A DNA stretch of 64,000 nucleotides from Salipiger mucosus DSM 16094 (GTDB lineage: Bacteria; Pseudomonadota; Alphaproteobacteria; Rhodobacterales; Rhodobacteraceae): the NCBI RefSeq assembly GCF_000442255.1, contig NZ_KE557274.1:190467-254466 (forward strand), written 5' to 3'. A model generated the notes under the pieces. The model had not been told where the DNA came from and did not search any database. It saw only the letters and a list, made by a program, of their open reading frames with translations. This document shows positions 18,983-62,969 of this stretch, one piece after another. Every line of letters starts with the position of its first letter. Within the stretch, counting starts at the first letter, position 1. The translations under genes were made by a program, and so were the position numbers.

Positions 18983-21973
18983 TCAGTCCTCCGCCAGTTC
19001 GTCGACCAGCCCCTCGATGACACCCTGGTCATCGTCCAGTTGAAGACCCTGCTCGGCGAGGCGCGCCGTCCGGAGTTCGACGTCGGCTTTCGCGCTGCCG
19101 TTCGCCCATCGCTTGGCGAGGCGGCGCCGCGCTTCCTGGGGGCCGATCCTGTTATAGAGGCTGTTCCGAATCTTCGCATCCTCAGGCGTGGTGGAAAACG
19201 CCCACAGCTCCATCGGCCCCAACGTATTGTAGAGCAGGTGCTCGTGGGCCCCGTCCTTCAAATTCAGGATCGCCAGGAACGGAGCGCCACGGGGTCCGGG
19301 ACCGTTCAGCTTGGTCCTCAGGACCCGGTTAGCGGCAGGCGACAGCCCGAAAATCTCGTTGGCTTTCTTGGCTGCGCGCTCGGTACCCACCCCCATGATC
19401 CAGACACCGGTCGCCACGTCGACCATGCTGTCGTCGAAGTCTTCCAGAAGCTGGGAGGCCAGGGCGATGTGGACGCCCCATTTCCGGCCCTCGCGCAGGT
19501 CGACCATGACCTGGTCGCGCACCTGGGGTGTCGACTTCGTCCGGTGGAACTCGTCCATCACGATCTTCTTGGGGATTTCACGAAGCGCGTTGATCCGCTT
19601 CTCATGGTGGCGCTGGTAGCTCTCCGGGATGAGATGAACGACCTCTTCGTTGAGATAGAAGTCGCGGGCCAGAACGAACCTGGCCAGCATGTAGACCAGC
19701 GAGGTCTGCTTGTCGGCCGGATCCCCGCCGCGGGGCGCCGCCTCGTCGATATCCAGGGACACCACCCGGCTGTCGCCGATGTCGAAGCGGGTCGGGACAG
19801 TCAGGATCTCGTACTCCCGCAGCGCGGAGGAAATCATCCTCTGGAAGACATCGATCAGAGGTTCACCGGTGGTCGTCTTCGCCGATCCGTGCACGTCCTG
19901 GACCTGGGTCTTGCGAACCACCACGTTGAGATCCTGGATCAAGGGAACGGCGAAGCGCTGGGCGAGCGTTGCTGCATGCAGGTCACCGACCTCGAAAAGC
20001 TTGTCGACCACGTCCCACCAGGTTGCCTCCTCGTCCAGCTTGATGTCGTAGCGCTTCAGGGCCGCATCGACGGCCTCGTCTTCCTGCGGGCTGTAGAGGC
20101 GCGGGTTGCCGCGACGCGACTGGTCATCGAGCTCCTTGTAGACCTCGTCGACCACCATGCCGGCCAGGTCCGAAAGTCCGGACGGAGGCGCCTTGTCGCC
20201 CACCGGTGTACCCAGAATGGACAGGAAGTTCACCAGGAATGCACGCTCCAGCGGCAGGGGGTACCGGCACCCCAGCTGGGTATCGAACGGGTTGATCGCG
20301 TGATCCTTGATCATCCGCAGACGCCTGTACTGCGCCTGGTGGCGCTTGTCGGCGGGCAAGGCTTCCTTGATCAGCGAAATGAGACCGGACGACGAGGGAC
20401 CGATGTCGATGATCGCCACGCGCGGAAGCTGCACCCCGGACGAGGAAGACGTCGCGCTGGGCGAAAGGCAGAGCGCGAGGTTCGTGGTATTCAGGAACAC
20501 CGACTTCGCATAGCCCGGAGGCGCGAAAATCAGGTCGATGAAAGTGGACTGCTTGGACGAGCCGGGCTCGTAGGGCCAGGGGCGCCCATCCGGCGTCCGG
20601 AACAACACCGATCCCTTCTCCCAGGGAGAGGCATCCCTGTTCCAGGGCATCATGTAGAGCGCATCGCGCATGGGCGGCGCGCCGGCCGCACCGGTGGAGG
20701 CGACATCCACGCCCAGCGCCGAGGACATGAAGGACGCCAGCGGATCCCCGGAACTCGAGGTGACCCCGCAATACCCCCAGCTTTCCACCGACCGCTGCAG
20801 CTGAGATACACGCTCCTCAAGAAGACGGACATTATCGACCGGGGCCCAGGTTGCGAAGGACACCCGGTACCGGACGATGACCTCCTCACCGTTCCGCTTG
20901 AGGTCCTGCATCGCGTTGATGGCTTCGCGGATCTGGACGTTTTCGGAATTCGTGAAGCCGACCACCGCCGCCAGGGTCGATTTCAGCTGCATCTCCCCGG
21001 ACAGACCGTTTCCTTCCAGCAGGAAACTCGCCCGCCATGGGAACTCCTTGCCCATCAGCATGCGGTTCAGAAGCTCGGAGAACGGCCGAACCTCCTGCGG
21101 GCCGACCGTCATGTCCAGCGTCGCGAAGTTGTACCGGCCGACCCGCACGATGCGGGGACTGAGCACTTCCCCGCCGCGGGAAAACACCTGGTCCCTGAGA
21201 GGCGGCACGAAGAGATGGCTCACGTCGCCCTTTGCCCAGGACGGGTTTCTCTGGAAAACCTTGTCCCCCGGAAGGGCCGGCTTCCAGTCCGCGCCCTGGA
21301 GATCGGGGTAGAGGGAGCCGCGGACCGCGCCGATGGCGTCATGAGCTTCGAGGACGTCGGCGCGCAGGTTGAGCGTCTTGAGGTCGGCAAGGAAGGCCGC
21401 CACGAAGCTGTCGTGGCGCGTGATGAGCTGCCGGGACGCCCGGAACACATCCTGCGTGCTTGCGGCCTGCGGCCAGGCATCGGGTTTCTTCCGCTCGCGC
21501 TTGATGCTCTCCAGCTCGGTCTTTGTGAGAACCGACGGCCGGGTCCAGAGAGCCAGGTAACATCCCTCCCAGGTGATGAAATCAGACAGGTGGTTCTCAC
21601 GTTCGTCGAACACGTCCTCGAGGTTGAGTTTCAGCTTATCGGACACGATCCGGGCCGGGCGATTCAGCCGTGAGACGAGTTCCTTGGAGGCATCCGGGTC
21701 CCGCGCGAACCAGACCTGAAGGGCGTGCCCCGAGGCGTCGAAGTAGCTCGACAACTTCAGGTTCATCTCGTCGATGACGCCGGCCATCTCCTCTGCGCCG
21801 GCCATCTTCTTCAGGCCGTCGATGCGGATCACCGACATGATGGACCCGTCCGCAGCCACCACGTTGTTCGTGCCCGAGATGCCGGTTTCAAGGAAGAAGA
21901 AGGAATCCATGTCCTTTTTCAGAATGCCGCCCAGGGCGGAGGCCAGACCGGACTTGATCGATGCGATACCCAT
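18983..21973 (-). CDS. traU: TraU/IcmB (DotO)-like type IVB secretion ATPase
   Basis: About 996 residues, matching TraU of IncI plasmids and DotO/IcmB (about 1010). The N-terminal half (SFFFLETGISGTNNVVAADG, then VIRIDGLKKMAG) has the IcmB signature. The ATPase half has a Walker A-like FAPPGYAKSVF near residue 490, in which the usual Gly before Lys is Ala. Walker B is KKIVMDEFHRTKS. The protein is the VirB4-like motor of I-type T4SS, on the cytoplasmic face of the inner membrane. The frame is open to 22021; I chose 21973 (MGIASIKSGLASALGG) because GGAG lies 10 nt upstream while earlier ATGs lack a ribosome site. Its stop is 2 bp from the UvrD-like start. Confidence 0.85.
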   Translation of the reverse strand: MGIASIKSGLASALGGILKKDMDSFFFLETGISGTNNVVAADGSIMSVIRIDGLKKMAGAEEMAGVIDEMNLKLSSYFDASGHALQVWFARDPDASKELVSRLNRPARIVSDKLKLNLEDVFDERENHLSDFITWEGCYLALWTRPSVLTKTELESIKRERKKPDAWPQAASTQDVFRASRQLITRHDSFVAAFLADLKTLNLRADVLEAHDAIGAVRGSLYPDLQGADWKPALPGDKVFQRNPSWAKGDVSHLFVPPLRDQVFSRGGEVLSPRIVRVGRYNFATLDMTVGPQEVRPFSELLNRMLMGKEFPWRASFLLEGNGLSGEMQLKSTLAAVVGFTNSENVQIREAINAMQDLKRNGEEVIVRYRVSFATWAPVDNVRLLEERVSQLQRSVESWGYCGVTSSSGDPLASFMSSALGVDVASTGAAGAPPMRDALYMMPWNRDASPWEKGSVLFRTPDGRPWPYEPGSSKQSTFIDLIFAPPGYAKSVFLNTTNLALCLSPSATSSSSGVQLPRVAIIDIGPSSSGLISLIKEALPADKRHQAQYRRLRMIKDHAINPFDTQLGCRYPLPLERAFLVNFLSILGTPVGDKAPPSGLSDLAGMVVDEVYKELDDQSRRGNPRLYSPQEDEAVDAALKRYDIKLDEEATWWDVVDKLFEVGDLHAATLAQRFAVPLIQDLNVVVRKTQVQDVHGSAKTTTGEPLIDVFQRMISSALREYEILTVPTRFDIGDSRVVSLDIDEAAPRGGDPADKQTSLVYMLARFVLARDFYLNEEVVHLIPESYQRHHEKRINALREIPKKIVMDEFHRTKSTPQVRDQVMVDLREGRKWGVHIALASQLLEDFDDSMVDVATGVWIMGVGTERAAKKANEIFGLSPAANRVLRTKLNGPGPRGAPFLAILNLKDGAHEHLLYNTLGPMELWAFSTTPEDAKIRNSLYNRIGPQEARRRLAKRWANGSAKADVELRTARLAEQGLQLDDDQGVIEGLVDELAED

Positions 21974-22224
21974 GAACGGGAGTCTCCGTGTTTCCTGCGG
22001 AGACATTTGTGCAGGGAACATGAAAACAGGGTTTGTTCGGGATCAGCGGCTCTTCCCATGCCGTGGTGTTGGCGAAAACCATGGAAGGTCTGACACCAGC
22101 CTCATCACGTTCCGAAATTTTCGTGTTTCAGACGGAACAAGCCCCCAATCTCAAAAATGAGATGAAACATTGATCCATCAGCAGCTTTGCGACTAGTTTC
22201 AGTAAGCTTTGGGGAGAGTGATCA

Positions 22225-59870: not shown

Positions 59871-62800
59871 TCAGTCGTCTTCGTCGTCATCGACGATGAA
59901 CTGGGACAGCAACTGGGTTGTGATATCGTCGGAGTCCGGCACCTCATCACCGCCTTCCTGCCCGCCACTGCCAGCGTCGGAGCCTTCGCCCTCATCCGAC
60001 GCATCCAGTTTTTCCGCCTCGTCCACCATGTCGTCCAACTCGTCGAACAGGGATCCGGCCGCCCGGGTGACGTTGTCATCGACATCTGAGGTCATGATGT
60101 CCTCCGGCCGCGGCATGTCCTCGTCATCCATCAGCGACGCGGGATCGATGGCGTCGATGATCTGTTTTTCGACCTGGTCCCGCGAAGTGTCGGAATCATA
60201 ATCCACGGCCGCCAGCGCGTTCATGACATCGTCATTGGCCGCCAGGTCACCGGACATATCGATCTCGCGCTCGTCATGATCGTCGTCTCCTTCGACCAGG
60301 ACCTGGTGGGAGATCCCACGTTTGATCATGTGCCCCTTCCGGCGCTCGGTCGCTTGATCCGTCGTATCGTTGCCCTCTGCGCCTTGGGCCCCGGCTTCAG
60401 AACCGTCATTGCCATTCTCGTCAGCGTCACCTGCACCGTCATTGGCTCCCAGGATCCTGTTATTGAATTCCTCGAGCGCCTCGGACTGCTCGTGAATGAC
60501 GGCGGCCACCGCACAGGCGCCGGCATCGGCCGGCTTGTTGCGCGACTTGATCATGTAGTCGAAGACCTTCACCGCGTTGGCAATACGATCCCGGCTGCCG
60601 CGGGCTTCCTTCACCGCCTCCTCCGCGGCCGTCTTGTTTCCGGAGATGAAGTCCTCCGACAGCATCCTATCGGTGATTTCAGGAAGTTTCCGCGCCCGCT
60701 CGAGATCGTCGTAGTCGGGCTTGGGAACCTTGATGAAGTGGTTGGCGCGCAGCTTGAGCTTGCTGTTGTCGACCGCACCTTCAGGGTTGGCGTAGAACGA
60801 CTTCGCGCGCACCACCTTCTCCTGGAAGGTGATGTGCATCATGCCCTCGGTCTGGGCCTTGAGGTCGGTGAAGTTCACTCGGTCCGTGGCCTCGATCCGG
60901 GCGTCCATCTGGTCAGAGTAACCGACACCCAGTTCGCCTGCCTTGCCCTGGTAGCCGCCGGTCTGGGCCTTGAGACCCTTGCCGCCGGCTTCGACGGCAA
61001 GCTTACCGGTGGTCTCGGCTTCTTCCGTCCGCATGAAGATCTTGGTGTTCGTGTTCGCGATGATCGATGCGGCCTCTTTCTCGTTGAGGCGTTTCATCGC
61101 GGGAATATCCTGGGAGGCGTAGACCATGGTGAAGCCCAGCGAGCGGGCTTGGGCCGCCATCAGGGCCATGCCTTCCACCGTGTAGTAGCCGACCTCGTCG
61201 AGCACGCAGATGAACGGCGAAGGCGAGTTGGTGGGGCGGTTCTCCACCACCTGCGCCCAGCTCCCCTCGAGTGACGAGCCCAGGGTGGAGCCCATCATGC
61301 CTTTCAGGGTGGCCACCACGATCTTGCCGAGGTTGGCGATCTCGTCGCCGGACTTTTCGAGCGCCGGCAACATGATCACCAGAATGCGACGGTTGAGAAC
61401 CACGTCGAACATGTCCACCTCGCCGTTGGGCGTGTGGAAGATGTGCCCGTAGACGTCCGCGAGGCTCCCGAGGATCTTCGTGAACTGCATCTCGAGATAA
61501 CCGTGCTGGTCGAGGGTGGTCTGGGCCTGCTTGTACCCTTTCTCGGGCTGAAAGCCGGGCAGGGAGGTCAGGTAAGACTTGATCTGCTTCCTGATCGGCT
61601 GCGGAAGATCGGGAAACTTCTTCTCGTCGCCGAGATCGATGATCTTCCGCAAAGACATGAATTCGCGGATCTCGCCCACGTTGAGATCGACGTGGCCCTC
61701 GTCACGCAGCCAGGTCAGCGCCCGCATCACACCGGTCAGCATTGCCGTTGCACGGCCCTTCCACATGGCGCCGTCGCCGCCGGCATCATCCATGAGGGAC
61801 ACGACCATCTGTGTCAGAGAGTCCGAAGAGCCGGTCGAGAAGGGGTTCAGCGTGTTGGACATGAGCTTGCCGCCCATGGCGCCGAGGTCCTGGTTGCCGG
61901 TCATGAAATTCAGAACCAGCAGGTCGTCCTCGCGACCGAACCGGCGGGCGAGGGCATAGACCTTCGCAAAGAGCGCCACATCGCCCTTGCCGTCGCAGAA
62001 CAGGAACCCTGATCCCCACATGAGAGCGTTCGCCGCGAACCCGAGAAGGGATTCCGTGTTGTGCGTCACGATGAAGTCGTCCGTGACGTAGAGATGATCC
62101 GGGTGATCGATGTAGATACATTGCGCCGGCTTCCGTCCGACCGGGTCGATGGAGGCAACCCTGGACATTTCCGGGGTGGCGCCAGGACGCGCGATCCTGA
62201 TTTCCTGGGTCTCCCCCTGGCTCGCCCGGGCAATGATCTCGAGGGTATCGATGATTTCCGGCTCCCCGGAGCTCCCGAAAACCTGCCACAGGTGGTCACC
62301 GCAGGCTTCGGTGGTGGCCCCGTTTTCCAGTGTGATCCTGAAAATCGCGACCTCTCCCTGGGGGTAGATCGCTTTCACCGCGGCGCGTCCGCCATCCGGC
62401 GTCGATACTTCATGACCGACCCGCAGATCTCCCATGCGAACGAACCCGTTGGGTGTCAGGACACCGGCCTCCAGCGGCTGCGCCTTACCGGCGCCGGTGG
62501 TCCCGACAACGAGGAAGTGCTGCCTGGCATCGTCGTTGGTCAGCCAGACCTCCTTGCCGGTCTTCATCTCGTTTCCAAGGAAGAAGATCCCCTTGGCCGA
62601 CGTGGGCTTGCCATGTGCCGGGTGCGGCTGGTGGGGATCGGAAAATCCGCTCTGGATCGGCATCTTCAAGGGCGCCGTTTCTTCGCGCTTCATGCCCCAC
62701 CGGTAGAACAGGACCGCGCAGATAAAGATGAACTCTGATATGCCAGGCAGCGCCCAGGCACTTGCGCCCAGGATGAACAACAGCGTGAGCATGTTGTTCG

Positions 62801-62969
62801 GGATCCTGATCCAGTCGGCAAACTTCTTGAGTTTGCCCCTCGTGTCGCGAACCAGGAACTCTTCGTTGAGCTCCTGCTCGTTCGTCAGACCCCGCGTTTT
62901 TCTTTCCACCATGCGCTGACTCTTCGCCTCGGTAACCGCTTGCCGGGCAAGTAGTCGCCAAAGGTTCAA
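59871..62969 (-). CDS. trbC: TrbC/DotL (IcmO)-like coupling ATPase containing a class 3 mini-intein
   Basis: The 1032-residue translation (890 after splicing) belongs to the IncI TrbC/DotL branch of VirD4-like coupling proteins. It has two N-terminal hydrophobic segments (MLTLLFILGASAWALPG, FIFICAVLFYRWG), then HFLVVGTTGAGK|TESLLGFAAN, where the P-loop is broken between Lys and Thr by the intein (62058-62483). Walker B is FICVLDEVGYYTVEG, followed by VYASQDIPAMKRLNE. The C-terminal 200 residues are acidic and disordered, as in DotL, where they bind adaptor proteins. It brings DNA-protein substrates to the type IVB channel at the inner membrane. Unspliced protein should lack ATPase activity. 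Confidence 0.88.
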   Translation of the reverse strand: MNLWRLLARQAVTEAKSQRMVERKTRGLTNEQELNEEFLVRDTRGKLKKFADWIRIPNNMLTLLFILGASAWALPGISEFIFICAVLFYRWGMKREETAPLKMPIQSGFSDPHQPHPAHGKPTSAKGIFFLGNEMKTGKEVWLTNDDARQHFLVVGTTGAGKAQPLEAGVLTPNGFVRMGDLRVGHEVSTPDGGRAAVKAIYPQGEVAIFRITLENGATTEACGDHLWQVFGSSGEPEIIDTLEIIARASQGETQEIRIARPGATPEMSRVASIDPVGRKPAQCIYIDHPDHLYVTDDFIVTHNTESLLGFAANALMWGSGFLFCDGKGDVALFAKVYALARRFGREDDLLVLNFMTGNQDLGAMGGKLMSNTLNPFSTGSSDSLTQMVVSLMDDAGGDGAMWKGRATAMLTGVMRALTWLRDEGHVDLNVGEIREFMSLRKIIDLGDEKKFPDLPQPIRKQIKSYLTSLPGFQPEKGYKQAQTTLDQHGYLEMQFTKILGSLADVYGHIFHTPNGEVDMFDVVLNRRILVIMLPALEKSGDEIANLGKIVVATLKGMMGSTLGSSLEGSWAQVVENRPTNSPSPFICVLDEVGYYTVEGMALMAAQARSLGFTMVYASQDIPAMKRLNEKEAASIIANTNTKIFMRTEEAETTGKLAVEAGGKGLKAQTGGYQGKAGELGVGYSDQMDARIEATDRVNFTDLKAQTEGMMHITFQEKVVRAKSFYANPEGAVDNSKLKLRANHFIKVPKPDYDDLERARKLPEITDRMLSEDFISGNKTAAEEAVKEARGSRDRIANAVKVFDYMIKSRNKPADAGACAVAAVIHEQSEALEEFNNRILGANDGAGDADENGNDGSEAGAQGAEGNDTTDQATERRKGHMIKRGISHQVLVEGDDDHDEREIDMSGDLAANDDVMNALAAVDYDSDTSRDQVEKQIIDAIDPASLMDDEDMPRPEDIMTSDVDDNVTRAAGSLFDELDDMVDEAEKLDASDEGEGSDAGSGGQEGGDEVPDSDDITTQLLSQFIVDDDEDD
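62058..62483 (-). other. Class 3 mini-intein (142 residues) inside the Walker A motif of the coupling ATPase
   Basis: Intein residue 1 is Ala (AQPLEAGVLTPNGFVRMGDL, block A), so there is no Cys1/Ser1. Block B ends ACGDHLW with the Trp; block F reads AQCIYIDHPDHLYV with the Cys nucleophile position; block G is VTHN followed by Thr of the extein. Trp, Cys and Thr thus form the WCT set of class 3 inteins, where the block F Cys starts splicing. Between blocks B and F there are about 50 residues, too few for a homing endonuclease. Removing it joins GTTGAGK to TESLLG, restoring a canonical P-loop. Confidence 0.88.

Follow-up and report, generated by a model that had tools for sequence, protein, structure and literature searches.

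How a conjugation motor can bind ATP when its gene places 142 extra residues inside the ATP-binding motif is the question raised by a locus of Salipiger mucosus DSM 16094. The locus lies in a 64,000-nucleotide stretch of contig NZ_KE557274.1 (positions 190,467 to 254,466), called the window below. An open reading frame on its minus strand (59871-62969, 1032 codons counted from TTG) encodes, by homology, the intein-bearing precursor of a DotL/IcmO-type type IV coupling ATPase, whose Walker A motif is split as GTTGAGK/T, the slash marking the junction. Sequence comparison and a predicted fold support identification of the insert as a class 3 mini-intein in this motif. Splicing of the intein would very probably rejoin the ATPase into a protein with a whole GTTGAGKT Walker A motif, as judged from sequence, model and analogy with related inteins.

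The insert covers exactly positions 62058-62483 (minus strand, like all parts of this gene), or residues 163-304 in TTG numbering, and separates K162 (62484-62486) from T305 (62055-62057). Across both junctions the sequence reads HFLVVGTTGAGK // AQPLEAGV...FIVTHN // TESLLGFA. The first part of the Walker A motif, GTTGAGK (62484-62504), precedes the insert, its Lys being the -1 residue, and TE follows, so that the motif is whole once the insert is taken out. A first-pass annotation of this DNA had placed a 142-residue insertion here and expected its excision to give a perfect Walker A; the position is correct to the base and the restored motif is as expected. The host frame is open over its full length and runs on through the insert, which holds no internal stop. 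G+C content is 62.9% in the intein and 60.9% in the host (77% and 81% at third positions), and this likeness gives no strong compositional sign of recent arrival.

Trp at B:12, Cys at F:4 and Thr at G:5 form the class 3 signature (PMC5222942). In an alignment with 29 other inteins, 28 of which hold the whole set, the insert carries W66 at B:12 (62286-62288), C122 at F:4 (62118-62120), which is the predicted first nucleophile, and T140 at G:5 (62064-62066). The alignment also identifies H64 at B:10 (62292-62294) and the terminal pair H141-N142 at G:6-7 (62058-62063), where Asn cyclisation is predicted. Thr+1 (Thr305, 62055-62057) is the predicted second nucleophile and would serve as the Walker A Thr after splicing. 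The only two Cys residues are C122 and C61 (62301-62303), the latter three residues ahead of His64. The first residue is Ala, with no Cys, Ser or Thr there, as expected of class 3. Ala1, W66, C122, T140, H141 and N142 all occupy the places that had been assigned to them, and on this sequence evidence Ala1 together with the complete Trp/Cys/Thr set would rule out a class 1 or class 2 intein.

Homology and fold comparisons agree with this assignment. The best phmmer matches in the PDB were class 3 DnaB inteins (E 1.1e-7, 2.9e-7 and 5.5e-6). An AlphaFold2 model of the insert (predicted local distance difference test score 97.7) has the HINT (intein) fold, and its top Foldseek match is the MchDnaB-1 intein (E 7e-10). 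These three results rule out a chance or non-intein insert. The model is a single splicing domain of 142 residues without a homing endonuclease domain, which bears out the proposed endonuclease-free mini-intein. PHROGs families of phage helicase loaders, terminases and primases matched the insert over stretches within the profiles, with E values from 2e-12. Weighing against the assignment, Pfam fails to call the insert, its only row being Hint_2 below the cut-off (E 0.057), and NCBIfam gives no row for it. Apart from Pfam and NCBIfam, the sequence and fold tests agree on a class 3 mini-intein.

The likelier start of the host protein is the ATG at 62912 (1013 codons), good alignment with relatives beginning near residue 26. 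From this start the N-extein, which ends in GTTGAGK, spans 62484-62912, and the C-extein with the remainder of the ATPase spans 59874-62057. Pfam matches are TraG-D_C (TraM recognition site, 60939-61217, E 9e-10) and TrwB_AAD_bind. The solved IcmO/DotL structure 6sz9 matches with E 1.7e-155 over residues 26-166 and again over 305-785; the match halts four residues inside the insert and resumes right after it. The host had been described as DotL/TrbC-type, and only the first half of that name stands. TrbC was rejected: NCBIfam TrbC_conju (NF041447) reached E 6e-118 and 395 bits, below its cut-off of 800, with the insert included in the query. Because of this score and the 6sz9 match, DotL/IcmO-like is the better name.

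The splicing chemistry proposed here is inferred from characterised class 3 inteins; position, signature, predicted fold, lack of an endonuclease and empty relatives come from this analysis. In class 3 inteins Cys F:4 attacks the N-terminal junction, the N-extein is passed to the +1 residue, and Asn cyclisation resolves the intermediate (PMC5222942). After translation, Cys122 in block F would correspondingly attack the Lys-Ala peptide bond, the N-extein would be handed to Thr+1, and cyclisation of Asn142 would leave the ATPase halves joined with GTTGAGKT uninterrupted. The protease-like triad of the Mch DnaB-1 intein consists of the Cys, His B:10 and Thr G:5 (PMC7664689), all of them present in the window intein. 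It follows from the sequence that the unspliced precursor would lack an intact Walker A, or ATP-binding, motif. Since Thr+1 doubles as the P-loop Thr, like Ser+1 in Msm DnaB-1 (PMC6195587), ATP binding would have to await splicing. The element may descend from the large phage family of class 3 inteins at K/T or K/S of P-loop ATPases and would have lost its homing endonuclease along the way; it presumably persists because lost splicing would inactivate the transfer ATPase. That the insert is itself splicing-dead, making the gene a dead allele or a cleavage-only precursor, would fit the lack of an endonuclease, and there is mention of a pseudogene whose class 3 intein is inactive (PMC7664689). 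We consider this very improbable, as no catalytic or junction residue is missing and the whole host frame is intact.

To see how the site is occupied elsewhere, 94 DotL-family loci were compared. Walker A is uninterrupted in 86 of them, seven have an insert exactly at K/T and one was left unclassified by the script. The set joins the best 80 of 389 genome relatives, many of them from Legionellales and two (L043 and L044) near-copies, with 14 hand-picked loci (plasmids, relatives and the window), so that 86 of 94 should not be read as a frequency in the population. Intact sites read, for example, GTTGAGKTE or GSTGSGKTE. In the proposed comparison with insert-free homologues, the closest relatives show an uninterrupted GKT: proteins of Thalassospira and Rhizobium and two of Bosea, 64-72% identical over the C-extein, all have the site empty. 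Inserts at K/T measure 142 residues in the window, 145 in Xanthomonas euvesicatoria p3191.2, 150 each in Pseudomonas savastanoi, P. putida W15Oct28 and Pseudomonas sp. LB-090624, 308 in genome G033 (same family as the window genome, no clear endonuclease motifs by eye) and 365, with LAGLIDADG-like motifs, in the DotL of the M. extorquens AM1 megaplasmid. At the AM1 intein locus (L120 8001-10943, NC_012811.1) the gene table has no annotated feature. The unclassified locus is that of B. vietnamiensis, whose icmO (L030 7403-11965) is cut in two by an integrase gene; the first part has an uninterrupted P-loop and the second holds the published Bvi IcmO intein.

Of 101 genomes searched with the precursor, five had a match: its own, G033 (insert at K/T), G041 and G095 (site empty in both), and G024. 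The G024 match, judged by eye, falls mostly on a class 3-like intein sited at K/A in a phage-like gene. Among 385 genomes of the class there was no intein match at E 1e-3 besides the window's own. Searched with a profile, 398 genomes of the phylum yielded matches in 23, own included; in at least six the match is confined to model positions of the endonuclease part and is no evidence of class 3.

The K/T junction is also occupied in a second coupling-protein family. TraD of IncC plasmids carries a 369-residue class 3 intein with LAGLIDADG-like motifs at GTTGSGK/T (L033 6001-7107, KR827394.1 28489-29595; also in L034). DNA of this intein was found in six plasmid records, five of them with the whole element, against 970 records with TraD C-extein DNA, and is therefore rare among these plasmids; a near-identity search found none in E. 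coli complete genomes. One record, NZ_AP028311.1, has the intein DNA in two places, as if interrupted. Among 66 distinct inteins of this kind on viral contigs, Lys stands before the intein in 63, with Thr (52) or Ser (11) at +1. They measure 276-413 residues in the 65 with an end found, which leaves room for a putative endonuclease, and by eye their hosts resemble terminases, helicases and AAA ATPases. Several single cases were seen alongside. A Miltoncostaea oceani plasmid (L135, NZ_CP064357.1 from 19842) has a class 3 intein at GEMGAGK/T of a T2SS/T4P/T4SS-family ATPase, beside type II secretion and prepilin peptidase genes. Two viral class 3-like inteins (L015 and L017) lie at GGGVLN/C, with Cys+1 and Arg or Cys replacing the penultimate His, and group on the tree with the long-branched Bvi IcmO intein. 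Another class 3 intein (L010 5001-6014) is complete save for Phe at the Trp position of the signature.

Occupied sites in distant plasmids may reflect one acquisition or several, and we compared intein and host trees. The window splicing domain is closest to viral-type inteins (61% identical to L151, 60% to L174 and L002, over 102 columns). Its placement is unsupported in a 91-row intein tree; in a 30-row tree it stands beside L002 (support 88/61). In the 91-row tree the six DotL P-loop inteins need four changes, of which the starred branches force two, and none of 200 bootstrap trees unites the six. The M. extorquens DotL intein is sister to that of IncC TraD, with support 100/93 in the 91-row tree (bootstrap not fully settled) and 98/98 in the 30-row tree. 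A C-extein tree, its 23 rows chosen by hand from the 94 and the B. vietnamiensis row filled in only 32% of columns, pairs the window protein with the empty-site protein of Thalassospira as its sister (96/91); starred branches of this tree force three or more changes of intein state. From these trees, the K/T site of coupling proteins was probably filled by more than one acquisition.

Vertical inheritance, with one ancient coupling-protein P-loop intein and many losses, is the less probable account, to which we still give some weight. The exact site is common to all coupling-protein P-loop inteins. On the 30-row tree, the approximately unbiased test does not reject a clade of the seven coupling-protein P-loop inteins (p 0.328), the same set without G033 (p 0.482), the six DotL inteins (p 0.11), the three alphaproteobacterial DotL inteins (p 0.145) or the window with M. 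extorquens (p 0.278). Most forks of the intein trees are open because splicing domains give only about 133 columns. A single ancient origin fits poorly with the changes forced in both intein and C-extein trees, with the bootstrap trees, and with a M. extorquens DotL intein whose sister sits in a different coupling-protein family.

The composition of the intein sets bears on residue counts. Three loci without a found end (L012, L016 and L023) and the near-copies L009, L011 and L044 were left out of the 30-row set; the 91-row set also left out L195 (no end), the contig repeats L140, L155, L183 and L207, and identical sequences. A script set the intein end at an Asn that follows His or one of a few other residues and precedes Ser, Thr or Cys, so counts of Asn and of the +1 residue are partly built in. 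Likewise, one of the six peptide patterns of one search was EACGDHLW and the only pattern of the other was HLW preceded by Cys or Thr, so counts of His, Trp and Cys61 in the 91-row set are partly built in; those of Cys F:4 and Thr G:5 are far less shaped by the patterns.

Because the Walker A motif of the precursor is split, the intein might act as a checkpoint that keeps the ATPase off until a signal such as redox state, DNA substrate or assembly arrives, and so regulate conjugation. Precedents exist: H2O2 inhibits splicing of the M. smegmatis DnaB class 3 P-loop intein through a disulfide that is reversed on reduction, and RadA ATPase is disrupted by a P-loop intein (PMC6195587) whose splicing responds to single-stranded DNA (PMC8987985). 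We read the Msm disulfide as joining the catalytic Cys118 to Cys48, both of which are named in that report (PMC6195587). The window intein has one further Cys, Cys61, near the block B His, and a redox trap between Cys61 and Cys122 like that of Msm DnaB-1 would be a guess by analogy. Cys61 is no coupling-protein feature, however: it occurs in 75 of the 91 related inteins, a count to which the search pattern itself contributed, and Thr takes its place in the Pseudomonas and Xanthomonas DotL inteins. An endonuclease-free intein is kept in the window and, at 145-150 residues, in the Xanthomonas/Pseudomonas group, but such persistence is equally expected of a neutral relic, and 86 of the 94 loci manage without any intein. 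Splicing might conceivably control conjugation, but this idea lacks support, and we regard a conditional checkpoint as unlikely. A broader proposal, to which we give slightly less credence still, is that the coupling-ATPase P-loop is a recurrent landing site on plasmids for phage-type class 3 inteins (several acquisitions, one lineage spanning DotL and TraD), with the endonuclease-less intein kept in some lineages as a redox- or assembly-sensitive switch. If true, the transfer motor would be armed only after splicing in some plasmid lineages.

Further type IVB parts are encoded in the same genome. A DotO/IcmB-like ATPase (18983-22021, minus strand, by homology) lies 38 kb from the coupling protein and is 37% identical (E 9e-185) to a DotO-annotated protein of Xanthomonas p3191.2. 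A DotH-like gene lies at about 498-500 kb on the 702-kb contig that holds the window, together with a weaker DotG-like match (E 1e-7, part of the protein) that could be another VirB10. Contig C9 has a DotM-like gene, and contig C5 a relaxase match (PF03432) barely above its cut-off. Its 702-kb length and an RPA-type replication initiator just beyond the window end (L035 3259-4365) make it likely that the contig is a megaplasmid or chromid. Among plasmid records the best matches were two of 1.3 Mb, from Rhizobium leguminosarum and Methylorubrum extorquens, and two of 0.7 Mb from Bosea. Also beyond the window end, a frame of 1829 codons (L035 10894-16383) has AAA_34 and Strawberry-notch helicase domains. 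Within the window, Pfam finds many genes of replication and repair at 5480-45999, with RecQ-like helicase, exonuclease I-like, RecJ, UvrD-like, RecD2-like and type I topoisomerase domains and a 1428-codon Prim-Pol frame.

Class 3 inteins, mini-inteins, the K/T site and a class 3 intein in IcmO/DotL were already known. This analysis adds that K/T of coupling proteins is filled repeatedly (Xanthomonas, Pseudomonas, Methylorubrum extorquens, G033 and a few IncC TraD). Among mostly titles and abstract openings, with supplements outside the search, we found no published DotL or TraD coupling protein with an intein in its P-loop, so this absence is weak. The old intein registry probably listed an intein named 'Mex TrbC', in which event the example from M. 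extorquens would already be on record. Searches of titles and abstract openings returned only PMC5222942 for intein with IcmO and nothing for intein with DotL, again a weak absence. Judged as an intein the window element is ordinary, and the recurrence pattern is the notable part: two coupling-protein families, DotL and TraD, bear class 3 inteins at the same K/T junction. A further natural intein, here in the catalytic centre of a conjugation motor, makes the effect of splicing on plasmid transfer testable, and small natural class 3 inteins flanked by Lys-1 and Thr+1 become available for studies of mechanism.

Among known systems, the Bvi IcmO intein of Burkholderia vietnamiensis G4 plasmid pBVIE03, which splices in E. 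coli (PMC5222942), is among the closest. Together with the further P-loop cases, it weakens the first-pass view that such an intein is uncommon in a type IVB coupling protein. Like the window intein it is a class 3 mini-intein of 142 residues with Cys122 and Asn142 in a plasmid IcmO/DotL host. Unlike it, the Bvi intein lies at ARSLGF/C after Walker B, starts with Pro, is followed by Cys+1 and leaves the P-loop uninterrupted; the splicing domains are 36% identical over 102 columns. The K/T junction of P-loops has been called 'classic' as a place for inteins (PMC5050341). Msm DnaB-1 and Mch DnaB-1 (PDB 6bs8, 6rix and 6riy) share the class 3 type, lack of an endonuclease, the P-loop position after Lys and a hydroxyl +1 residue with the window intein (PMC5222942, PMC6195587), but their host is the replicative helicase DnaB, their +1 residue is Ser and they are about 21-27% identical. 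The viral-contig inteins have the same junction, after Lys in nearly all, and differ in their greater length and, by eye, in other ATPase hosts. The inteins of the M. extorquens, G033, Xanthomonas and Pseudomonas DotL proteins and of IncC TraD match the window intein in the exact K/T position and the Trp/Cys/Thr set. They are 41-56% identical to it over 102 columns, and three of them are long, those of M. extorquens (365 residues) and TraD (369) with endonuclease motifs and that of G033 (308) with none clear by eye.
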